This document shows, piece by piece, positions 14,653-57,191 of a DNA stretch of 64,000 bases. How positions within the stretch are numbered: the first letter of the stretch is position 1; the number at the start of each line of letters is the position of its first letter. The notes beneath the pieces are model-generated. The model was not told where the DNA came from and made no database searches. It worked only from the letters and a program-made list of their open reading frames with translations. The translations under genes and the position numbers were made by a program. Origin of the DNA: Malaciobacter marinus (GTDB lineage: Bacteria; Campylobacterota; Campylobacteria; Campylobacterales; Arcobacteraceae); the NCBI RefSeq assembly GCF_003544855.1, contig NZ_CP032101.1:1984001-2048000 (forward strand). The letters run 5' to 3'.

Positions 14653-16899
14653 TTAATGATGATAATCATCATAAATAATTTTTGATGTTTTAAATTTAAG
14701 TTTTTTAATCTCCATAATCTGGCTATACTCTTCTTGAGAAATTTTCTCCATTTTAACAGCTGCTTTATATGTTGGTGTTTTAGTTGTATAATCCCATCCA
14801 GAACTAGTTAATTCATTGCATAAACCTTCCCAATAGTGAAAAGTCATCTGCATTATATTATCTGGAATCGTTTCTGTAATTTCTACTAAAACTGCTATAT
14901 AACCATATCTACTTTCAACTTTGATAAAATCTCTATTTTTTAAATTATATCTTTTTGCAAGTGCTGGATTAATTTCAGCTGTTGGACCATGAGCATCTCC
15001 ACCCTCTTCAATAATTTTTGACTTTCTTGTCATTGTTCCAACTGTATATTGATATACCTTTCTTGTTGTTAAAAGTGAAATTGGAAACTTTTCATCTGTT
15101 TTTTCATCAACAGAACCTACCATACAAGGATATCCCTCAGGTAAATTTAACTTTTTACGAAGCTCTTCTTCTGCCTTAGCCGTATCATTTTTATCATCAA
15201 TAAAAACAACAGGTACTAAATTTGCTTTTTGATCTTTTGTAAAAAACTTTTTATCCATGTACAAACTTGGTGTTCCAGGATGATCTTCACTTGGACAAGG
15301 CCAAGCTATCCCACTAATTTCTCTTAATCTTTTATAAGTAATTCCTTTAAATCTTTTAGGATCAGCAACTCTTACTTCATTCCAAATTTGTTCAGGTGTT
15401 GTATAATCAAAACCTTTTGCATCAAATCTTTTTGCTAACTCACAAATGATTTCCCAATCTTGTTTTACATCTCCTTTTGGATCTAGTGTTTTTTCATTTA
15501 ATTGAACTCTTCTTTCTGCATTTAAATAACAACCTTGTTTTTCTGCAACACTAACAGCAGGTAAAACAACATCTGCTTTAAGTGCTGTTTCTGTTAAAAA
15601 GATATCTTGAACTACATAAAAATCAACTTTTGAAATACCCTTTAAAAAGTGATTTGTATTAGGTTCTGAAATAACTGGATTTTCACCAATAGTATAGAAA
15701 AACTTAACTTTACCATCTAAAATCGCATCAGGAACTTCTGTTTTATGAATACCAATTTTTGAACTTAAAGGTTGTTTACAATCCCAAAGTTCTTCAAAAT
15801 AATCTCTTGCTTGTTTACTTGTTACAAGTTTTAAATTAGGGAAAATATTTGGTAAAATTCCCATATCACAAGCACCTTGAACATTTTGTTGACCTCTAAG
15901 AGGTAAATCCCCTGCTCCTAATTTTCCAATATTTCCTGTTATTAACATCAAGTTTGAAATATCACAAACATTTCCTACCCCATGATTAAAATGTGTTACA
16001 CCCATACCATGAGTAATCACAGCAGGCTTTGATGTAGCATAAAGTTCTGCTGCTTTAATTAATAACTCTTCATCAACACCTGTCATTTCAGATACTTTTT
16101 TAGCAGTATAATCTTTAACAGCTTCTTTTAAATATTCAAAACCATGAGTATAATTCTCAACAAACTCTTTATCATATAATTCATTGTTTATAATATGCGA
16201 AATTAGCATATTTATAATCGGAATGTTGTACTCAGGTGGAAGCTGAATAAAAGCATCCGCTTTTTGTGCAAATTCAGTTTTTATAGGATCAATTACAATT
16301 AATTTGGCTCCTCTTGATATTGCTCTTTGAATATGCATTGCTGCAATTGGATGTCCATTTTCAGGATTTGAACCAATCATTAAAACACAATTTGAGTGTT
16401 CTCCAACTTCTGTAAAACTGTTTGTAGCTGTACCATTACCAATTGTTTTAGCCAGACCGGCTACTGTTGGTGCATGTCAAACTCTTGCGCAGTGATCTAT
16501 GTTGTTTGTACCTATAATTGCTCTCATAAATTTTTGAGCAACATAATTTTCTTCCAATGTACATCTAGCTGAAAAATTTCCAACTATTGCATCAGGACCA
16601 AATTTTTGTTTTACTTCTTTCATTTTTGAAACAACTAAACTAAGAGCTTCATCCCATGATGATTCAACAAAATCTCCATCTTTTGAGAAAACTCCATCTT
16701 TTTTTCTAATTAAAGGTTTTGTTAATCTCTCATTTGAACTAACATAATCCCACCCATAAATACCTTTTAGGCATAAATGTCCTTCATTTACAGGGTTTTC
16801 TTTTATACCTTTTACTTTTACTATTCGATTTTCATGCGAAGTCAAACGAACTCCGCAGCCTGTCCCACAATAGGGACAGATAACGTTTGTATTTTTCAT
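14653..16899 (-). CDS. fdhF: selenocysteine formate dehydrogenase (FDH-H type), last enzyme gene of the FHL operon
   Basis: A cytoplasmic molybdo/tungsto-bis-MGD formate dehydrogenase of 748 residues. The reading frame is interrupted only by TGA at 16477-16479, which encodes selenocysteine at residue 141 in CARV-Sec-HAPTVAG, matching Sec140 of E. coli FDH-H. A SECIS hairpin follows. The N terminus binds one [4Fe-4S] cluster through CPYCGTGC and HLCLKG. There is no Tat signal, so the protein stays in the cytoplasm. It lies 14 bp after the formate channel gene and ends the operon. It is paralogous to the selenoprotein at 27314-29554; why two are kept is unclear (possibly different metal or electron partner). 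Confidence 0.93.
16450..16462 (-). promoter_or_regulatory. bacterial SECIS apical hairpin
   Basis: Fourteen bases after the UGA the mRNA reads AGCC-GGUCU-GGCU: a 4-bp stem with the GGUCU loop known from E. coli fdhF, where SelB binds. Confidence 0.75.
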
Positions 16900-43077: not shown

Positions 43078-44325
43078 TTAATTAAAAATATCTATTTCTT
43101 TTTCTAATAGTTTGTTATTAAATTTAATAACACCAACCTCTTGATTACACTCTATGTTTTTAGTATCACTATTTGTTACCAATAAAGCATTACTTTCATA
43201 TAAAGCAGTAATCATCCCAGAACCATATTTATTATTTCTTGTTACCTTAAAACCTCCATTTTCACAAGTTCCAAGCACTACGTTTACTCTTCCTTGTTTT
43301 GTTTTAAAATTTTCTTGATTTGTTGCTTTTATCACATCATGATAAAAACAGTTACTTCCTTGAAGTTTTTTTAATACAGGAATTGCAAAAAGATGCATAT
43401 TAACCATCGCAGTCAATGGATTCCCAGGAAGTGACATTACAGTAGTTTTACCCATATTACCCATCATTATAGGTCTTCCAGGTTTTACATTTACTCCATG
43501 AAATGAAGTTTCTAAACCATTTTCTAAAAATGCTTGTGCAACAAAATCAGCATCTCCCATAGAAATACCTCCTGTTGTTATAACCACATCATAATTTTTC
43601 AAATTAGAAATAAACTTCTTTGAACTTTCTAAATTATCAGGAATAACTCCACTATATGTAGCATTAAAACCTTTTTCTTTCAAAAGTGCAACTAATGCAT
43701 AAGAGTTACAATTATATATTTCATCTTCATTAGAAGTTTGCCATGGTTCTTTTAATTCATCACCTGTTGATAAAACAGCAATTGAGATATCCTTAAAAAC
43801 TTCAAGCATTACGATACCTTGAGAAGCCAAAAGTGCAATATGAGAAGAATCAATTATTTCACCTTTTTTAAATAAAATATTTCCTCTTGTTTGTTCTTCA
43901 CCTTTTAATCTTAAATTACTTCCTTTTTTAATATCAATAGGTAAAGTTAGACTACTTTTTGTTACATCAATACAATTTTCAATTGGAACAATAGTATCAG
44001 CATCATTTGGGACTTGTGCTCCTGTCATAATCTTATAACATTCGCCCTCTTTTAAATCTGCTTGAACTTTTTCATCTTTATCTCCAGCATAAATTACTCT
44101 TTTAATATTTAATGTTTTACCAATATCATCATGATTAAAAGCAAATCCATCCATAGCTGAATTATTAAAAGATGGAAGATTTTTTTGGCATATTATATCT
44201 TGTGCAACAACTTTACCTAAAGAGTCTAATAAAGGAACAATTTGAGTAAGTGTTGTAGCATGTACAAGTTCCAAACTTCTTTTTACTGCCTCATCAAATT
44301 CTAAGTATGTTAGTTTATTGCTCAT
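43078..44325 (-). CDS. moeA: molybdopterin molybdenumtransferase MoeA
   Basis: A 415-residue enzyme that inserts molybdate or tungstate into adenylylated molybdopterin. Domain order is as usual, with NSAMDGFA, KIMTGAQVPNDADTIVPIE, VLSTGDEL, NCNSYALVALLK and TTGGISMGDADFV (active-site region), and VKPGRPIMMGN and SLPGNPLTAMV near the end. It overlaps the desulfurase-like gene by 11 bp. Its company with tungstate importers suggests it may handle tungsten for FDH. Confidence 0.92.
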   Translation of the reverse strand: MSNKLTYLEFDEAVKRSLELVHATTLTQIVPLLDSLGKVVAQDIICQKNLPSFNNSAMDGFAFNHDDIGKTLNIKRVIYAGDKDEKVQADLKEGECYKIMTGAQVPNDADTIVPIENCIDVTKSSLTLPIDIKKGSNLRLKGEEQTRGNILFKKGEIIDSSHIALLASQGIVMLEVFKDISIAVLSTGDELKEPWQTSNEDEIYNCNSYALVALLKEKGFNATYSGVIPDNLESSKKFISNLKNYDVVITTGGISMGDADFVAQAFLENGLETSFHGVNVKPGRPIMMGNMGKTTVMSLPGNPLTAMVNMHLFAIPVLKKLQGSNCFYHDVIKATNQENFKTKQGRVNVVLGTCENGGFKVTRNNKYGSGMITALYESNALLVTNSDTKNIECNQEVGVIKFNNKLLEKEIDIFN

Positions 44326-45295
44326 TTAAAACCCTTATTTGTCTATATTTTTTATAAAAATGTTTTGATATTTTTTGAATATCCTCTTTTGTATACTCTT
44401 CATTAAAAGATATCGAGATTGCATTTCTACTAGTTAATTCATCATATCCCATACTTTGAATAATTCTTGAAGGTTTAGATAGTCCTAAAGAACAACCCTC
44501 TCCATTTGTAATAAGTATATTTGATAAAGATAATGTTCTTATAAGTTCTCTTGCTTTAATTGCTTTTAATCCAAAGTGTAAAGAGTAATCTAATGTTGTT
44601 TTAGAATCTACAAAAAAGTATAAATCCTCTTTAAAAATAGCTTGTAATTCTTCTATAAAAATCTCTTTATTACTTGTATTAAATTTTTGTTCTTTTAAAG
44701 CTTCAAAAGTCAGTTTTACAGCAATTGAATCTAAATTTGCAATATTTTGTTCTTCAAATTCATCATTAAATAAAATTATTGCATTGCTTGTATATCCACA
44801 TATTTTATAAGAATCGAAAATTGCAATATCACAATTTTCATCAAAGTTAGCACTACAGTTTGAAATAATTTTTGCACTACTTAACTTTTTTATATCTTTT
44901 AATTGTGTTTTAACAAAAGTATCCATCACATATGAAGATATAAAAATAAAATCAAACTTACTTTTTTCTAAAATATCTAAATCAACACTTCCATCTTTTT
45001 TTAATTCAAGCCAAGTTATCTCTAAACCTAACTTTTCATACTCTTGTGCTGCTTGGATAATCGCTTCTGATTCTCCTTTGCTTACAGCAATTTTTCCTTT
45101 TAAATCTAATAATAGACCTAATACCCCTGCTTTTGAAAAATCAATTGTTTTTAAATCATTAAAATTATATTTTGCAATAAACTCTTTTTTCAATTCATAA
45201 AAGGTGTCGTTATTACTTAAAACATTAAGAGATTCTTCTTTTGTAATATGGTAATTTTGCACATTTGGGTACAATAAAAAATTTAACTTATACAC
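44315..45295 (-). CDS. degenerate cysteine desulfurase-like protein
   Basis: A 326-residue fold-type I PLP-like protein related to IscS/NifS. The C-terminal NGEGCSLGLSKPSRIIQSMG matches the catalytic Cys loop (C268), and FDSYKICGYTSNAIIL matches the Lys (K164) that binds PLP. Other cofactor residues appear replaced: SKGESEA (72-78) has Ser76 where IscS has the stacking His, the region of the conserved Asp/Gln is shortened (ISNCSAN), and the N-terminal Gly/Thr phosphate loop is missing. The GTG start shares a base with the modE stop (TAGTG). Lying in the fdhD-moeA operon, it may hand sulfur or selenium to FdhD or FDH. Confidence 0.7.
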   Translation of the reverse strand: MYKLNFLLYPNVQNYHITKEESLNVLSNNDTFYELKKEFIAKYNFNDLKTIDFSKAGVLGLLLDLKGKIAVSKGESEAIIQAAQEYEKLGLEITWLELKKDGSVDLDILEKSKFDFIFISSYVMDTFVKTQLKDIKKLSSAKIISNCSANFDENCDIAIFDSYKICGYTSNAIILFNDEFEEQNIANLDSIAVKLTFEALKEQKFNTSNKEIFIEELQAIFKEDLYFFVDSKTTLDYSLHFGLKAIKARELIRTLSLSNILITNGEGCSLGLSKPSRIIQSMGYDELTSRNAISISFNEEYTKEDIQKISKHFYKKYRQIRVLNEQ

Positions 45296-45666
45296 TATTT
45301 ATCCTCCTTTGGACTTAGTATCTCTTTCCCATTTTTATGGAATAGTTCTTTAAATCTTTGTTCTGAATATTTTTTTATATCATGTTCTAATATTTTATAT
45401 GTTTGAATAACTTCTCTTGCTTTTGGAGTAAGCGTTGTGCCACTATTTTCTCCTCTTCCTTTGAATCTTAGAACTAAATCTTCTTCAATATGTTTTTCTA
45501 AAATCTTAATATGTGTCCAAGCTTTTTTGTAGTTCATTCCCACTTTTTTTGCTGCTTCTGCAATAGAACCAGTATTATCTATATTTTCTAAAACTTCTGT
45601 TTTCCCACTTCCAAAAATTAGATTTTCTTCATCGTCTTCAATCCAAACTTTTATTTTTACTTTCAT
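45295..45666 (-). CDS. modE: ModE-like DNA-binding regulator (single domain)
   Basis: A 123-residue winged helix-turn-helix protein. FGSGKTEVLENIDNTGSIAEAAKKVGMNYKKAWTHI is the ModE/LysR-type DNA-binding region. GRGENSGTTLTPKAREVIQTYK follows, as in E. coli ModE. The molybdate-binding TOBE domains are absent, so it cannot sense oxyanion the way E. coli ModE does; another component might. It may bind one of the palindromes near the FDH and TonB receptor genes. Confidence 0.85.
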   Translation of the reverse strand: MKVKIKVWIEDDEENLIFGSGKTEVLENIDNTGSIAEAAKKVGMNYKKAWTHIKILEKHIEEDLVLRFKGRGENSGTTLTPKAREVIQTYKILEHDIKKYSEQRFKELFHKNGKEILSPKEDK

Positions 45667-46081
45667 TTTTCTTACCTTTTTTTTCTCTAAAACACCCTAA
45701 TTGACAATGTGTTACTTCAATATCAGAGTTTTTTACTGTTGAACCAACAGTTCTTAAAGTAGATTTTTGAGCTTCTTCCCATAAAACTTTGCATCCAAGT
45801 TCTTTGTGTCCCATATAATTTTGTTTTAATCTATTATAAACTTCTATATGAGGATCATGAAATTTTAATTTTCCAAAAACACCTAACTCACAATTTGTGA
45901 TCTTTATTCCTAAACTTTTTGTAATTGCAGACATCTCTTTTGGTTTTTTACCAATTAATCTTGCAACTTTAAAAGCTTTTAGACAAGATAGTTTACCATC
46001 TTCGTCTAAATTTGTTAAAATTAATTCTTTTTGTATATTATCAAGTTGTATGTCAATATTATCATCAATACTAGACATCAA
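45638..46081 (-). CDS. hypothetical protein with a duplicated CxLGxF motif
   Basis: A 147-residue soluble protein. Two similar segments, IKITNCELGVFGKLK and IEVTHCQLGCFREKKG, suggest an internal duplication with one Cys each (plus one extra), possibly binding a metal or sulfur. The first half (LSCLKAFKVARLIGKKPKEMSAITKSLG) looks like a helical, possibly DNA-binding segment. It overlaps fdhD and modE at either end, so it is co-translated with FDH sulfuration and regulation genes. I recall no named family. Confidence 0.65.
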   Translation of the reverse strand: MMSSIDDNIDIQLDNIQKELILTNLDEDGKLSCLKAFKVARLIGKKPKEMSAITKSLGIKITNCELGVFGKLKFHDPHIEVYNRLKQNYMGHKELGCKVLWEEAQKSTLRTVGSTVKNSDIEVTHCQLGCFREKKGKKNESKNKSLD

Positions 46082-46859
46082 TTCTTCCTTGATGTGTATA
46101 TAAATTCATTCTTTTACCTCTAGCAAAACCTATTAATGTAACTCCATGTTTATGTGCAGTTTGTACACCAAGATACGTTGGTGCTGTTCTTGAAACTATA
46201 ATAGGAACTTTATGCATAACTGCTTTTGTAACCATTTCAGAAGATAATCTTCCACTTACAAATAAAACTGATTTAGTTGTATCTAAACCTTTAAGTTTAC
46301 ACTTTCCTACAACTTTATCAATTGCATTGTGTCTTCCTATATCTTCAGAAGTCACTGTTGTTCCATCAAGTAAATAAATCATTGCTTTATGTACACACCC
46401 TGTTAACTTATAAAGTTCGCTCTCTTCATAAAACTTTTTTACTTCTGTTGATATTGTTTCAGGTTTAACTTGGAAAGAGACTTGATTAAAAGGTATTTCA
46501 ACATTACCTTCAACATTTCCAGTAACTCCTCCTCCACAACCACTTACAAGAGTTTTTTCTGTATATAAATTTTCCAATGAACCTTCATTGATTTTTGCTT
46601 TAATATCAACTCTTAATCCATCTTCACTTAAAGTCAACTCTTCTACATCATCAATATTTGATATAACATTTTCACTCATTAAAAAACCAATTGCATGTGC
46701 ATCTTGATCTATTGGAATACACATCATAGAGATAGCCTTTTCTCCATTTAAATATAGATTTAATCTTGATTCTTCAATTGTTACATCATCAAACTCAACG
46801 GCTTCATTTCCTGATACTTTATCTATTATTACTTTTTTTAAATATTTTTGATTATCCAC
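46071..46859 (-). CDS. fdhD: formate dehydrogenase sulfurtransferase FdhD
   Basis: A 262-residue cytoplasmic protein that passes sulfur from a cysteine desulfurase to the Mo/W cofactor of FDH. TGCVHKAMIYLLDG, SEDIGRHNAIDKVVGK and LFVSGRLSSEMVTKAVMHKVPIIVSRTAPT are the family blocks. The active loop reads LVSGCGGGVTGN with a single Cys (C108) instead of a CxxC pair. First gene of the metal-supply operon; upstream is the terminator of FDH module 1 and a TATAAT promoter. Confidence 0.92.
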   Translation of the reverse strand: MDNQKYLKKVIIDKVSGNEAVEFDDVTIEESRLNLYLNGEKAISMMCIPIDQDAHAIGFLMSENVISNIDDVEELTLSEDGLRVDIKAKINEGSLENLYTEKTLVSGCGGGVTGNVEGNVEIPFNQVSFQVKPETISTEVKKFYEESELYKLTGCVHKAMIYLLDGTTVTSEDIGRHNAIDKVVGKCKLKGLDTTKSVLFVSGRLSSEMVTKAVMHKVPIIVSRTAPTYLGVQTAHKHGVTLIGFARGKRMNLYTHQGRIDV

Positions 46860-46957: not shown

Positions 46958-47851
46958 TTAAACTTTATTTTGTTCTTTTAATTGTTTATAATAAGTGCTG
47001 TGAAGGATTTCAACTTCCTCTTCTTCTTTATCCCCTATAATCATACTATGTATCGCACCTTTTATTGCAAACATTGACATATATACATGTGTGAAAAATA
47101 ATGCTGCTACTGCCATACCTAATATATTATGTACTATTGCACTTAATCTTAAAAAGTCGATTTGTGTTAATCCCATTGATTTTATTATTGCTAATTCGAA
47201 GTCTTGGAAAAACATTACTGCACCTGTTAGAATCATTATAATCCCTCCAAATGTACATACCCAAAACCACATCTTTTGTCCCGCATTAAACTTACCTGCT
47301 GGTATTGGTCTTTTTACTTTACTTAAGTATCCACCAAGTATCATCATCCATTTTACATCATCCATTGTTGGTAGCATCTCTTTAAACCACATTATTAACA
47401 TTGGTACTACTGATATACAAAACAGTATTGTTGATAAAGCATGTAAGTCTTTACATATTCTTACAAACTCTCCTCCTCCAAATGTTGTACCAAACACCAT
47501 GATAAAACCTGTTGGTACTAGTACTAAAAACGATACTCCTGCAATCCAGTGGATTACCCTATGAAATATTGTAAATACTGGTATCTTTTTTCTATCATGT
47601 GAAAATACTTTTGGTCCTATTATTAAATAATGTATTAAAAATACTGCTGGTATTCCAAGAGCTACTATTAAGAACCCTATTGAAAAATATTTCCCTTGAA
47701 GTACTGTGAACCATTGACCTAAATGTAATGAACCCTCTTTTCCATAACCTAATATATTTGTTATTAATTCTTCACCATAAATAGCACTATCAGCAGCAAA
47801 TGCTGCTGTAGTCAAAGCTAAAAAGATGATTATCATTTTTCGTTTCATCAT
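46958..47851 (-). CDS. fdhC: formate dehydrogenase cytochrome b556 subunit, module 1
   Basis: A 297-residue inner-membrane di-haem cytochrome (FdnI/FdoI type) that passes electrons from FDH to menaquinone. It has an N-terminal hydrophobic leader and then four core helices. Candidate haem His residues are in IFHRVIHWIAG, CKDLHALS and AIVHNILG. It is related to, but clearly diverged from, the two identical fdhC copies at 52833 and 60312. Confidence 0.9.
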   Translation of the reverse strand: MMKRKMIIIFLALTTAAFAADSAIYGEELITNILGYGKEGSLHLGQWFTVLQGKYFSIGFLIVALGIPAVFLIHYLIIGPKVFSHDRKKIPVFTIFHRVIHWIAGVSFLVLVPTGFIMVFGTTFGGGEFVRICKDLHALSTILFCISVVPMLIMWFKEMLPTMDDVKWMMILGGYLSKVKRPIPAGKFNAGQKMWFWVCTFGGIIMILTGAVMFFQDFELAIIKSMGLTQIDFLRLSAIVHNILGMAVAALFFTHVYMSMFAIKGAIHSMIIGDKEEEEVEILHSTYYKQLKEQNKV

Positions 47852-47856
47852 TAGCC

Positions 47857-48462
47857 TTATTTTGTTCCGTATGCTCTACTCCAAGTCATTGGTGATGTTT
47901 GTACCCCATGACCTCTTGCTAGAACTCTTTCTCTATATATTGCGCTTACTTCTTGTGCATCTCCTACTAATAATGCTTTTGTTGAACACATTGCCGCACA
48001 TACAGGTACTCTTCCTTCTGAGATTCTATTTTGTCCATAGATATGTCTCTCTTTCTCACTATTTGTTTCTAGTGGTCCTCCTGCACACATTGTACATTTA
48101 TCCATTGCACCTTTTGCTCCAAAGGCACCTTCTCTTGGAAATTGTGGAGCTCCAAATGGGCAAGCATATAAACAATAAGCACAACCTATACAAGTCTCTT
48201 TATCATGAAGTACTATTCCATCTTCTCTGATATAAAAACAATCAACTGGGCATACTTGCTCACAAGGTGCATCATTACAATGCATACAAGCTATTGATAA
48301 AGAGTATTCTAATCCCTCTTTTCCTTCATTTAATGTTATTACTTTTCTTCTATTAATACCAGCTGGTAATTCATGAGCTTCAGCACATGCAATTGAACAT
48401 CCATCACATTCAATACATCTACCTTCATCACAATAGAATTTTAATCTTGACATTTCACTCAT
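47857..48462 (-). CDS. fdhB: formate dehydrogenase iron-sulfur subunit, module 1
   Basis: A 201-residue periplasm-facing polyferredoxin with four [4Fe-4S] motifs: CIECDGCSIACAE, CMHCNDAPCEQVCP, CIGCAYCLYACP and CTMCAGG (completed by CAAMC). It carries electrons from FdhA to FdhC. It lacks the C-terminal membrane helix of E. coli FdnH. Export is probably by hitch-hiking with the Tat-targeted FdhA. Confidence 0.9.
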   Translation of the reverse strand: MSEMSRLKFYCDEGRCIECDGCSIACAEAHELPAGINRRKVITLNEGKEGLEYSLSIACMHCNDAPCEQVCPVDCFYIREDGIVLHDKETCIGCAYCLYACPFGAPQFPREGAFGAKGAMDKCTMCAGGPLETNSEKERHIYGQNRISEGRVPVCAAMCSTKALLVGDAQEVSAIYRERVLARGHGVQTSPMTWSRAYGTK

Positions 48463-48472
48463 AGCTAAACTC

Positions 48473-51301
48473 CTACGCTCTTTCTATTCGGCATAATCCG
48501 CCTTTTGTCTCTGGAATTTGTGTAATAATGTCATAACCATAGTTAGTAACAGTATTCGCACTTTCACCAATAGCATAAGGTTTTGTTCCTTTTGGATACT
48601 TATGACTAATATCTTCACCTTGGAAGTGTCCTGCAAAGTGGAAAGGTAAAAATACTCTATCTGGGCTAACAGAATATGAATATTTAGCTTTTACTTTAAT
48701 TTTTGTTCCCTCAGGAGAGTGAATCCAGATCATATCACCATCTCTTACACCTAGCTGACCTGCTAATTCTGGATTAATACCACAGAACATTTCAGGACTT
48801 AATGCTGCAAGATATTTAGATGCCCTATTTTCCATACCAGCACCATTCATATTTACAAGTCTTCCTGTAACTAAGTTAACAGGGAAATCTTTTGACCAGT
48901 TTTGTTCTGTTTGTTTAGAGATATATTGTGTATCAACTCTAAAATGATTATCCTTATCTACATAAGCAGGATATTTTTTAGCTAAATCTTGTCTTGGAGA
49001 GTGTAATGGCTCTCTGTGCATTGGAATTTCATCAGGGAATGTCCATACTCTAGCTCTAGCTCTTGCATTTCCATATGGTGCAATTCCTGCTTCCATACAT
49101 TTTTCTGCAATAATATTAGATCTATCAACTTTCCAATTTTTACCAATTTTTTTCTTCTCTTCTTCTGTCAATTTGATTTTTAGAACTTCTTCAATGTTAT
49201 CTCTTGTAATTTCTGGATATCCTCCATCAACTTTAGAGCCTTTTGGTGCACTACCTTTAGCAGCTAATTGTGAAACTCCATCATGTTCTAATCCAAATCT
49301 ATTTCTAAATCCCATACCTCCATCTTTTACACTTAAATTCGTGTTATAAAGTAATGGGCTTCCGCTATGATTTTCTGTCCAACAAGGCCATGGTAAACCA
49401 TAATACTCGCCTTTCATCTCTCCATAACCTCTAAGTGATACTTGGTCAAACATATGCCAATTATCAGTATGCTTTTTAAGTCTTTCAGGAGTCCATCCTG
49501 TTAAACCAATAGTTTTAATAACTCTTGCAACTTCTCTTGTTCCATCTTCAGGCCATGTAAATTTACCGCTACTATCTTTCATAGATGCAGTATATTGATC
49601 ATAAAAACCTAATCTTTTTGATAATTCAAATAAAATTTCTTGGTCAGGTTTTGATTCATATAATGGCTCAACAACTTTTCTTCTCCATTGAGCAGATCTA
49701 TTTGTAGCAGTTACAGAACCACTTGTTTCAAATTGAGTTGCTGCTGGTAATAAGAAAACATCATCTTGTTTATCAGTTAATACAGCTGCTTCATTTACAA
49801 AAGGATCAGCTAAAACTAATAGTTCTAAACTATCTAGACCTTCTTTGATTTTTGCTTGTTGTGCAACAGATGTAATACCATTACCCATAACAAAAAGAGC
49901 TTTCAGACCTGTTTTACCATTATGGATTTTATCATTTCCATTTTTACCATCAAGTACACCAGCCCACCATCTAGCAAGTGTAAATCCATTTTTATTCATC
50001 CATTCAGGAGATTGGAATTGTCCTTTTAACCATTCATAATCTACATTCCACTGTTTTGCGAAATATTTCCATGAACCATCACCTAAACCATAATAACCTG
50101 GAAGTGTGTTAGCTAAACATCCCATATCAGTAGCACCTTGAACGTTATCGTGCCCTCTTAAAATGTTTGTTCCACCACCAGCTCTACCCATGTTACCAAG
50201 AGCAAGTTGTAAGATTGGTGCTAATCTTGTATTAGAAGAACCAATTGTATGTTGAGTTAGACCCATAGCCCAGATTAATGTACCTGGAGAATTTTTAGCA
50301 TAAACATTAGTAATTTGAATTAATTTATCAGCAGGAACACCAGTTACATCAGCAACTTTTTCAGGAGTCCATTTTTTAGCTTCTTCTTTAATCAAATCCA
50401 TTCCATAAACTCTATCATTGATAAAGCTTTCATCTGCCCAGCCATTTTTAAATATAATATTCAACATTCCATACATAAATGGAATATCAGTACCTGGTCT
50501 AATTTGACAAAAATGATCAGCTTTTGCAGCTGTTTTAGTATACACTGGATCTATTACAATTATTTGTGCATTATTTCTTTCTTTTGCTTTAAGAAAATGT
50601 GCGAATCCTACTGGGTGATTAACCGCTGGATTAGCTCCAAAAATAATTATTGATCTAGCATTTTGTATATCACCTAAAGAATTTGTCATAGCGCCATAAC
50701 CCCATGTATTTGCCACACCGGCAACTGTTGCACTATGTCAGATTCTAGCTTGATGATCTATATTATTTGTTCCATACATTGCTGCAAACTTTCTAAAATA
50801 GTAAGCTTGCTCTGTATTCATTTTTGCTGATCCTAAAAACATTGTTGAATCAGGGCTTTCTTTTTCTCTTAATTCTTTCATTTTCTTAGAGATTCTTTCA
50901 TATGCTTCATCCCAAGAAAGTCTTTTCCATTGCCCTTTTTCTTTTACCATTGGATGTTTAAGTCTAACTTCTGACCTAACCATATCAATCATATCAGCAC
51001 CTTTACAACAATGACCTCCAAGTGAAACTGGATGATCTTGTGCAACTTCTTGTCTTACCCACACACCATTGTGTACTTCTGCAATAATACCACATCCTAC
51101 AGAACATGCAGTACAGATAGTTTTTACTTTTTTCGAACCTGGAAAAGGATTTTTTACCTCTTCAGCAGTTGCTTCTCTAGTAACACCATCATTACTTGCA
51201 AAAGCGCTTACAGCACCAGAAGCCGTAGCAACAGCAGCCATTTTAATAAATGATCTTCTACCTACTTTAGCTTTTAATGCATCATATGTACTATTTGACA
51301 T
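48473..51301 (-). CDS. fdhA: selenocysteine formate dehydrogenase catalytic subunit, module 1
   Basis: A 942-residue periplasmic formate dehydrogenase. It begins with a Tat signal (GRRSFIKM then a hydrophobic Ala-rich stretch), and the [4Fe-4S] site is CTACSVGC...HCCKG. The TGA at 50738-50740 encodes selenocysteine 188 in QARI-Sec-HSATVAG, with a SECIS hairpin after it. The length fits respiratory FdnG/FdhA-type enzymes with bis-MGD and Mo or W. It oxidises formate and feeds electrons through FdhB and FdhC to the quinone pool. Preceded by a Tat-target gene and a TorD-like chaperone gene. Confidence 0.94.
50710..50724 (-). promoter_or_regulatory. bacterial SECIS apical hairpin, module 1 fdhA
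   Basis: Thirteen bases after the UGA the mRNA reads UUGCC-GGUGU-GGCAA, a 5-bp stem with loop GGUGU, one base different from the GGUCU of the fdhF-type genes. Confidence 0.7.
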
Positions 51302-54350: not shown

Positions 54351-57191
54351 CTATGCTCTTTCTATTTTGCAAAGACCTGCATTGAATTCAGGTATTTGTG
54401 TAATAATGTCAAATCCATAATTTGTGATTGTATTTGAACTCTCACCTATTGCGTATGGTTTTGTTCCTTCTGGGTAATTTGCACTCATATCTACACCTTG
54501 CATCATTCCTGCAAAGTTATATGGTAAAGCAATTCTATCAGGAGTAACACTATGACTATAAATAGCTTTTACTTTAATTTTTGTATTTTGAGGTGAATGT
54601 AACCACATCATATCACCATCTCTTAATCCATGTTGTGCTGCTAATTCTGGATTTATATGTGCAAACATTTCAGGAGTAATATGTGAAAGATATTTACTTG
54701 TTCTTTCTAACATACCAGCACCACTTAAATTTACAACCCTCATAGTTACAAGCATTGTAGGAAAATCTTTTGACCAATCTTGTTGTTGTTGTTCTGATTT
54801 AAATCTTACATCAACTCTAAAATTATTTGTTTGATCCTCATAAGTTGGATATTTCATTACTAAATCATGTCTTGGAGAGTGAATTGGCTCCCTATGCTTT
54901 GGAATAGGATCAGGAAAAGTCCAAACTTTAACTCTCGCTTTTGCATTTCCATATACACAAACACCTTTTTCTCTACATTTTTCTTGAATAATTCCACTTA
55001 AATCAACTTTCCAGTTTGCACCAATTTTTTTCTTTTCATCTTCTGTCAATTTAATTTTTAGAACTTCTTCAATATTATCTTTTGTAATTTCTGGATATCC
55101 ACCTTTAATATTAGAGCCTTTTACACTAATACTCTCATCAGCAAGTTGTGAAACGCCATCATGTTCTAAACCGAATCTATTTCTAAATCCCATTCCACCT
55201 TTATTTACAGGTGTATCAACATCATATAAAACAGGACTTCCAGGATGATTATTATCCCAACTAGGCCAAGGTAATCCATAATATTGATTTTTCATTTTCC
55301 CATAACCTCTTAATGTTATTGGGTCAAACAAGTGCCAATTTTCTTGGTGTTCTCTTAATCTTTTTGCTGTCCATCCACCAAGTCCAATAGTTTTTACTGT
55401 TCTTGCAATTTCATTTGAAGCATCATCAGGCCAATTGTAATCTTTTTTTACAACTTTAATTTCTCCATCAACAATATCCATTTTCATAGCTTTTACATAT
55501 TCATCATAAAAACCAAATTTCTTAGCAAACTCAAACATTACTTCATGGTCAGTTTTACTTTCGTATAATGGATCAACAACTTTACTTCTCCATTGAGAAG
55601 ATCTATTTGTTGCAGTTACACTACCTTCTGTTTCAAATTGTGTTCCAACTGGTAAAATATAAATATCATCTTTTTTACTTGTAATTACTGCTGCTTCATT
55701 TACAAATGGTTCTGCAATTACCAATAAATCTAATTTATCTAAAGCCTCTTGTACTTTTGCAGTTTGTGCCATTGAAGTAATACCAGTACCTTGAACCCAT
55801 AAAGCTCTAATAGGACTTGAAGAATATGTTTTTTCTTCTTGTAATACACCTTGCCACCATTTTGCAAGTGAAAAACCTTTTTCATGCATCCATTTTGGAG
55901 AGTGAAATCTTCCTTGTAACCAATTAAAATCAATACCCCATGCTTTTGCATAATATTTCCATGACGCTTCACTTAAGCCATAATATCCAGGTAGACTATC
56001 AGCAAGACAACACATATCTGTAGAACCTTGTACATTATCATGTCCTCTAATAATGTTACATCCTCCACCTTTTTTACCCATATTTCCAAGTACTAATTGA
56101 AGTATTGGAAGAATTCTTGTATTTGATGTACCTGTACTATGTTGTGTGATACCTAATGCCCAAACAACTGTTGTAGGTTTTGTTTTTGCTAATAGTGTAG
56201 CAAGCTGAATAATTTGTTCAGCAGGAATACCTGTAACATCAGATGTCTCTTCTGGAGTCCATTTTTCAGCTTCTTGCCTTACTCCATCCATTCCATAAAC
56301 ACGACTATCAATAAACTCTTTATCTTCCCAACCATTTTTGAAAATAACATGTAATAACCCATAAATAAATGCAACATCCGTACCTGTTCTGATTCTTAAA
56401 TAATGATCAGCTTTTGCAGCAGATTTTGTATATACTGGATCAACAACTATTAGCTTAGCATTGTTTCTATCTTTTGCTTGAAGAAAGTGCTTAAATCCAA
56501 TTGGATTTGCTACAGCTGAATTTGCTCCTATCATTAAAATAGCTTTAGAATTTTCAACAACATCACCAAAGTGATTTGTCATAGCGCCATAACCCCATGT
56601 ATTTGCCACACCGGCAACTGTTGCACTATGTCAGATTCTAGCTACGTGATCGATATTGTTTGTACCCCATAAAGCAGCAAACTTTCTAAAATAAAAAGCT
56701 TGTTGTAAATTAAACTTTGCAGAGCCTAAAAACATTGCTGCATCAGGACCATTCTCTTTTCTAAATTTTAACATCTTTTCAGATATTTCATTTATAGCTT
56801 GTTCCCAAGAAATTCTTTGCCATTTACCAGCCACTTTTTTTAAAGGATGCTTAACTCTTTGTTTACTTTTTACTAAATCAATTTGGTCAATACCTTTACA
56901 ACAGTGACTTCCTTCACTAATTGGATGGTCTTGAGCTACATCTTGTCTTACCCAAACACCATTATGAACTTCTGCTACAATTCCACAACCTGCAGAACAA
57001 ATACTACAAATTGTTTTTACTTTCTTTGAACCTGGAAAAGGATTTTTTATCTCTTCTTTTGTTGCTTCTCTTACAGTATTACCAGAAGCAAACATTGATG
57101 TTGCCCCTACTCCTGCACCGATTGAAGCAAGTTTAAGAAAATTTCTTCTTCCTATTTTCAAAGATAAGTCATTGAGTATATTTTTACCCAT
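54351..57191 (-). CDS. fdhA: selenocysteine formate dehydrogenase catalytic subunit, module 2
   Basis: A 946-residue periplasmic enzyme with Tat signal (GRRNFLKL), [4Fe-4S] site CSICSAGC...HCCKG and in-frame TGA at 56631-56633. The TGA encodes selenocysteine 187 in VARI-Sec-HSATVAG, followed by a SECIS hairpin identical to that of module 1. It is colinear, without net indels, with the partial copy at 61830 (offset 7479 bp); patches of perfect identity alternate with diverged ones. Function as for module 1, perhaps tuned to a different metal or condition. Confidence 0.94.
56603..56617 (-). promoter_or_regulatory. bacterial SECIS apical hairpin, module 2 fdhA
   Basis: UUGCC-GGUGU-GGCAA thirteen bases after the UGA, the same as in module 1. 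The 41 bases from the UGA onward are the same in both genes although the sequence before it differs. Confidence 0.7.

Follow-up and report, generated by a model that had tools for sequence, protein, structure and literature searches.

A formate dehydrogenase (FDH) operon of Malaciobacter marinus encodes a relative of the cysteine desulfurases whose pyridoxal 5′-phosphate (PLP) site looks degenerate. What such a protein does beside FdhD is the question raised by positions 1,984,001 to 2,048,000 of contig NZ_CP032101.1, a stretch of 64,000 nucleotides to which we refer as the window. The protein, here termed X, is the 326-residue product of the open reading frame (ORF) at 44315..45295 on the minus strand, with a GTG start at 45295. 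Comparison of its sequence and gene order across the phylum suggests, at what we judge to be slightly below an even chance, that X is an FDH maturation protein derived from a type I cysteine desulfurase, PLP-decayed, that carries persulfide to FdhD or docks on it.

The sample comprises 397 genomes of the phylum. The window's family is denoted f1; f2, f3, f5, f6, f7 and f10 are other family-level groups, and g27 and g48 are genera. Judging by, for example, gene content and the named locus L002, f2 probably corresponds to the Helicobacteraceae, f3 to the Campylobacteraceae and f7 to the Sulfurimonadaceae. The features of X are located as follows.

44315..45295, minus strand: X, apparently IscS/NifS-derived with a decayed PLP site (from the ORF list, Pfam and NCBIfam models, the profile comparison with IscS, and orthologs).
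44468..44506, minus strand: catalytic-cysteine loop of X, codons 264-276, NGEGCSLGLSKPS; the Cys268 codon is at 44492-44494, and Cys268, Gly271, Pro275 and Ser276 occur in 101/101 covered sequences.
44549..44551, minus strand: codon of Arg249, in the motif IKARELIR; Arg in 100/101 covered sequences, where IscS has VEGES.
44804..44806, minus strand: codon of Lys164, the equivalent of the PLP lysine by alignment to IscS Lys206.
45068..45070, minus strand: codon of Ser76, at the position of the PLP-stacking His104; Ser, Thr or Cys in 38/38 f1 sequences, His in 46/56 f2 sequences.

Sequence relationships and cofactor site

Profile and sequence searches clearly indicate that X is homologous, remotely, to the type I cysteine desulfurases. 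It matches the IscS model TIGR02006 with an E-value of 3.6e-12 and 46 bits, below the equivalog cut-off of 643.2, and the NifS model with 1e-10; its second type I desulfurase score is 40.9 bits against a cut-off of 530.75 (models compared, TIGR02006 and TIGR03402). Pfam Aminotran_5 is matched with 26.9 bits (cut-off 21.5), and the Pfam and NCBIfam matches of X include no model specific to its subfamily. A phmmer search relates X to E. coli IscS at 2.4e-6, and a profile of 38 homologs (A1) aligns with the same protein (1p3w) at 3.9e-15 over IscS residues 94-381; IscS residue numbers were counted by hand along the printed sequence of 1p3w. The IscS chain has 404 residues and is thus longer than X.

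In the profile alignment, X retains the PLP lysine (Lys164, IscS Lys206) and the catalytic cysteine (Cys268, IscS Cys328). Ser76 stands at His104, Met124 at Asn155, Asp161 at Ser203 and Ser294 at Arg354. The IscS pair Asp180/Gln183 falls on Ser148/Phe151 or, with a two-residue shift, on Asn146/Ala149, and Asp or Gln is recovered in neither register. A GATES-type phosphate loop is not recognizable at the N terminus; the sole alignment reaching it, to the SufS-type paralog of the genome, is weak and sets GVTES against Ala56-Gly57-Val58 of X, followed by a two-residue gap. An earlier note, made from the letters of the window, had listed Cys268 and Lys164 as remaining and the stacking His (now Ser76) and the Asp/Gln pair as lost. 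The alignments confirm this observation, but the list of losses was too short, the counterparts of Arg354 and Ser203 being gone as well.

According to PMC9978102, IscS variants at His104, Asp180, Gln183, Lys206 or Cys328 lose activity, K206A showing a very low rate, and R354K is fully active. Loss of desulfurase activity in X, complete or nearly so, is well supported by comparison, since f2 orthologs have lost the PLP lysine with the cysteine unchanged and since these published IscS mutants are inactive; the doubt of the earlier note that X is an active desulfurase holds up on these grounds. Nor is X the housekeeping desulfurase, because the genome has at another place (L076) an ordinary NifS of 399 residues with, judged by eye, all canonical motifs.

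Two patterns of residue loss

A single-sequence search with X (E <= 0.001) gave matches in 107/397 genomes, the weakest of them probably generic; weaker matches outside f1, f2 and f7 were excluded from the counts. The A1 profile, at a threshold of 1e-10, matched 99/397 genomes: 36 of the 43 in f1, 56 in f2, five in f7 and single genomes in f6 (a partial match) and f10 (a weak, probably generic match). G174 (E 4.3e-18) and L004 (29% over 94 residues) were classed as generic desulfurase relatives, and the plasmid collection searched for X gave no match. Altogether 101 distinct X-family sequences were collected, among them those of the named loci L002 and L003 and the additional copy of genome G370. 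The f6 protein L060 (268 residues, aligned in its C-terminal part only) is kept among the 101 with the cysteine and excluded from the tree and from the f1, f2 and f7 counts; L064 matched as two pieces, giving 57 f2 rows for 56 proteins.

Cys268 is present throughout (38/38 in f1, 4/4 in f7, 2/2 in the f7 genus g48, 56/56 in f2 and 1/1 in f6), and Gly271, Pro275 and Ser276 are conserved exactly as the cysteine. Beyond this loop the conserved residues of the family are Asp125, Arg249 and Arg290, each arginine being found in 100/101 sequences. Lys164 occurs in 38/38 sequences of f1, 4/4 of f7 and 2/2 of g48 (44/44 together), and in 2/56 of f2, where the 54 sequences that lack it have Ser (20), Asn (18) or other residues. 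A histidine at position 76 is found in 0/38, 0/4 and 0/2 sequences of f1, f7 and g48 and in 46/56 of f2. Asp at position 146 follows with 0/38, 0/4, 2/2 and 50/56, the remaining six f2 proteins having Glu. The f1 proteins and most of those in f7 have lost the His and Asp yet kept the Lys; f2 has mostly done the reverse.

A quick maximum-likelihood tree (104 rows, four outgroups, with long branches flagged at the root) places the X family on one side of a branch with support 100 and unites f2 in one clade (99 in the Shimodaira-Hasegawa-like approximate likelihood-ratio test, SH-aLRT). The Lys-bearing g48 pair (L049/L050) falls beside f2 (84); the opposite side (93) groups f1 and the remaining f7 sequences. 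Because this pair sits beside the single f2 clade, the lysine was probably lost after the X family arose. Most simply, the ancestor would have had a full site, which decayed separately in two branches, the Cys loop being spared.

Genomic context

An fdhD gene lies upstream of X, directly or beyond genes for a four-Cys protein and/or ModE, at 36/38 f1 loci and 6/6 f7 loci (42/44). Two f1 loci lack it: L022 of G203 lies at a contig end, and L046 of G370 is an additional copy. In f2, X stands directly behind selB, with selA before that, at 47/56 loci, and fdhD is upstream at 1/56 (L055). A moeA gene follows X directly at 28/38 f1 and 40/56 f2 loci. The X of L055 is 25% identical to the window protein; we argue that the two are orthologous because it occupies the place of X in an order that joins both arrangements, selA-selB-fdhD-modE-X-moeA. 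At the f2 loci L096 (G135) and L097 (G233), X is missing behind selA-selB despite FdhD and FdhA in the genome, and in L096 moeA directly follows selB.

Among the 43 f1 genomes, X is accompanied by FdhD in 35 and found without it in one (G203, where X lies at a contig end); seven have neither. The corresponding figures for SelA are 34, two (G299 and G374) and seven. In G299 and G374, which gave no SelA match, the FdhA adjoining X has Cys at the selenocysteine (Sec) place (L084, L085), and fdhD and X are kept. Six of the seven genomes without X have MoaA above the cut-off; NapA is whole in four of these and broken across contigs in the other two. In G346, the seventh, no MoaA reaches the cut-off and NapA gave no match. 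General cofactor synthesis is therefore independent of X, since genomes lacking it keep MoaA and NapA, and we rejected a general molybdenum-cofactor role for X. In f1, X follows FdhD, not selenium or the molybdenum cofactor as such.

For f2, the co-occurrence count excludes genus g27 and covers the 60 other genomes for which one or more of X, SelA and FdhD were counted; G226 was left out, its sole match being a weak one to FdhD (6.8e-5). SelA is present in 60/60. X and FdhD occur together in 54, X without FdhD in two (G062 and G067), FdhD without X in two (G135 and G233) and neither in two (G049 and G178, which also lack FdhA). X in f2 mostly follows both FdhD and SelA, with exceptions in either direction. 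SelA and FdhD accompany X in all five f7 genomes that carry it, and G343 of f7 has SelA without FdhD or X. The association with FdhD proposed in the earlier note is borne out in f1, where 35/36 carriers and 0/7 non-carriers have FdhD; in the gene order of f2 it is confined to the single locus L055.

A possible role in FDH maturation

In E. coli, IscS binds FdhD and gives it sulfur, and FdhD sulfurates the bis-molybdopterin guanine dinucleotide (bis-MGD) cofactor; the CXXC motif of FdhD is neither essential nor well conserved, as stated in PMC6239281. The window FdhD has SGCGGG at the CXXC place. Sulfur donation to FdhD is the job proposed for X. With its PLP site decayed, X itself would take little or no sulfur from cysteine. 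Instead, the ordinary NifS/IscS of the cell would load a persulfide on Cys268, and X, docking on FdhD in place of IscS, would hand the sulfur to FdhD and bis-MGD, providing the Mo=S ligand of FDH. Where E. coli uses its housekeeping IscS, M. marinus has a decayed paralog in the operon and an intact NifS elsewhere. X looks like the persulfide-handling part of IscS, left after the persulfide-making part decayed. Slightly more tentatively, the family as a whole may be a PLP-free or PLP-silent chalcogen carrier for FDH and selenocysteine assembly, dismantled at least twice, by loss of His/Asp in one case and of Lys in the other, with the persulfide loop kept.

Like IscS and NifS (TIGR02006, TIGR03402), X shows homology over most of its length, a Cys loop and, in f1, the PLP lysine. 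Unlike them, it lacks the stacking His, the Asp/Gln pair, the carboxylate Arg and the phosphate Ser, and it sits in an FDH/Sec operon. The X family represents a new subfamily within an established kind, paralleled by the Lys-less IscS of archaea. The A. fulgidus IscS and Methanosarcina acetivorans IscS1 have lost the essential lysine and kept the cysteine (PMC7585200), as have 54/56 f2 orthologs. The A. fulgidus protein works with IscU in Fe-S assembly, whereas members of the X family adjoin fdhD/modE/moeA or selA/selB, and the window X differs further in retaining Lys164. Loss of the lysine is no proof of PLP loss, because PLP is shown in the A. fulgidus IscS complex according to a figure legend in PMC9769115.

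Several observations weigh against the proposed role in FdhD-dependent maturation. Many genomes of f3 and f10 have FdhD and SelA and none has a true X match, which makes X a lineage-specific helper. In f2, G062 (L087) and G067 (L073) have X and SelA without FdhD and without an FdhA match at 1e-20, and G135 and G233 have FdhA, FdhD and SelA without X. All co-occurrence counts were taken over related genomes, and the events are not independent. Lys164 is fully conserved in f1, and PLP binding may have been retained there. Finally, the structure prediction called for by the earlier note gave a poor model (mean predicted local distance difference test score, pLDDT, 50.5; input X, L002 and L003). 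Its Foldseek matches are IscS-like chains, in line with the sequence and adding little to it, and the model was not used for residue geometry.

If the proposal holds, X would be a natural experiment that separates the making of a persulfide from its carrying, fixed in the fdhD operon in one group and behind selA-selB in another. The sulfur route to Mo in FDHs outside E. coli is partly open; a 2018 paper describes the desulfurase serving R. capsulatus FdsC as still unidentified (PMC6239281). X-type genes could also easily be mislabelled as cysteine desulfurases. We found no description of the X family in print within the open-licence literature, including word searches inside PMC4607533, PMC5322559 and PMC5029168.

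Three candidate correlates were rejected. Exclusion by FdhT/YedE does not explain the distribution of X, as several f2 genomes carry both seleno-YedE and X; seleno-YedE (TIGR04112) scored above the cut-off in 16/80 genomes examined and 0/19 of f1. The FdhD loop type is not a signature of partnership with X: loops of the form [EQ]KTL..[ST]GC[GC] occur at f1, f2 and f7 loci and 18 FdhD proteins of f3, f10 and f5 differ, but the X-less f2 genome G233 is also of the KTL type, so the loop marks lineage. A dedicated partnership of X with the four-Cys protein fails because that protein is also found in families without X. Accessory genes of FDH reportedly include fdhTU of Campylobacter jejuni, whose products are YedE/TusA-like. 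These resemble X in being a lineage-specific FDH accessory in the same phylum, and the proteins are unrelated to X.

Alternative explanations

X could instead be a selenium carrier that passes a perselenide on Cys268 to SelD/SelA, its link to FDH arising because FDH is the main selenoprotein. We consider this unlikely, although the f2 data lend themselves to it: X is directly behind selA-selB at most loci, SelA is present in 56/56 f2 genomes with X, G062 and G067 retain X and SelA without FdhA, and L055 groups selA and selB with fdhD, modE, X and moeA. It is at odds with G299 and G374, which lack SelA and have a Cys-type FdhA with X still beside fdhD, and with four f2 genomes that have SelA and no X. 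Across the sample, SelA was found in 263/397 genomes (251 over the cut-off) against the 99/397 with X profile matches. The selenium relay suggested by the earlier note is accordingly weakened in f1 by the two SelA-less genomes and keeps some plausibility through the 47/56 f2 loci behind selA-selB; its interpretation overall is partly supported.

It is also doubtful that X is a non-catalytic docking or stimulating subunit on FdhD, MoeA or NifS, for example in a mixed dimer, with Cys268 as a structural residue or a metal or cluster ligand. A. fulgidus IscS offers a precedent, being Lys-less and inactive with its Cys ligating a cluster on IscU (PMC7585200). Such a protein is useful without desulfurase chemistry, which also speaks for a scaffold role. 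The poor X model has PDB entries of A. fulgidus IscS among its best fold matches, and the conservation of Arg249, Arg290 and Asp125 outside the Cys loop is a further point in favour. However, the best-kept part of X is the entire persulfide loop, beyond the single cysteine, and no IscU-like scaffold was recognized by eye among the window ORFs, no profile search having been made.

Retention of a PLP-dependent desulfurase or lyase activity in f1 is quite improbable. It would require a rebuilt pocket, with Asn146 facing the pyridine, Lys164 and Cys268, and perhaps another substrate. The invariance of Lys164 in f1 and f7 is consistent with this, as is the presence of Asn146, Asp161 and Tyr163 in 41/42 sequences each of f1 and f7 outside g48. 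Against it stand the inactive IscS variants at His104, Asp180 and Gln183 (PMC9978102) and the maintenance of the f2 branch without the lysine. In addition, no sequence in any group of the census has an Arg at the place of IscS Arg354, and the position of Ser203 holds Asp in 37/38 f1 sequences.

That X is a decaying gene without function can be dismissed almost entirely, the Cys loop being invariant and no stop interrupting the match in 36/36 f1 carrier genomes, even though one f2 match (G253) holds a stop. The ratio of nonsynonymous to synonymous substitution rates (dN/dS) of X is 0.18-0.35 in five f1 comparisons (one with dS > 1) and 0.09-0.21 in four Lys-less f2 pairs (one with dS > 1). The neighbouring genes, over five comparisons each for FdhD and ModE, gave 0.04-0.10 for FdhD and 0.03-0.09 for ModE, with 0.16-0.23 for MoeA and 0.04-0.13 for the four-Cys protein. 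X is under purifying selection in both branches and is not a pseudogene; its rate of evolution exceeds that of FdhD and ModE and is close to that of MoeA.

The operon and its surroundings

X lies in a tightly packed run of genes in the order fdhA(Sec)-fdhB-fdhC-fdhD-[four-Cys protein]-modE-X-moeA-tupA-tupB-tupC-modA-modC-modB. Apart from fdhD, moeA and the modE domain, the members presumably bear these names, which we assign from sequence and order. The neighbours of X in the window are the following.

43078..44325, minus strand: MoeA (searched domain), overlapping the stop of X by 11 nucleotides.
45295..45666, minus strand: ModE-type regulator consisting of the DNA-binding domain alone (TIGR00637, 71.4 bits against a cut-off of 98.5), overlapping X by 1 nucleotide.
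45638..46081, minus strand: small protein with four invariant Cys; three loci of other families encode its equivalent as the N-terminal half of a ModE fusion.
46071..46859, minus strand: FdhD (searched with Pfam and NCBIfam).
46958..47851, minus strand: ORF, presumably an FdhC-type cytochrome b subunit, by sequence and position.
47857..48462, minus strand: ORF, presumably an FdhB-type iron-sulfur subunit.
48473..51301, minus strand: FdhA catalytic subunit, with an in-frame TGA (Sec) at 50735-50737.

The genome consists of one contig of 2.9 Mb. Malaciobacter halophilus has an X 88% identical to that of the window, in an identical gene order.

The four-Cys protein is encoded upstream of X at 31/38 f1 loci. 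It contains two pseudo-repeats (C..NCELGxFG..C..CQLGxF) and has no convincing Pfam match. In the three loci of other families (L171-L173) the fusion with ModE lies beside fdhD; in f1, ModE appears to be split into two genes. The pair of four-Cys protein and X occurs twice in G370, the second copy (L046) lying downstream of tupABC. The window genome has a second copy of the four-Cys protein at G000:C1:1075735-1076118.

A SECIS_3-like match at 50685-50743 in fdhA scores 33 bits against a gathering score of 63, and a second such match, at 56578-56636, likewise stays under the gathering score. Four FDH-type catalytic ORFs in the window have an in-frame TGA within the motif H[CQV]AR[ILV]-U-H, with first bases at 16479, 29137, 50737 and 56633 on the minus strand; in a fifth such ORF, at the end of the window (63780 on, L092), Cys stands at the Sec position. 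A selD-selA-selB cluster lies about 7-8 kb past the end of the window (G000:C1:2054582 on; L074, L092).

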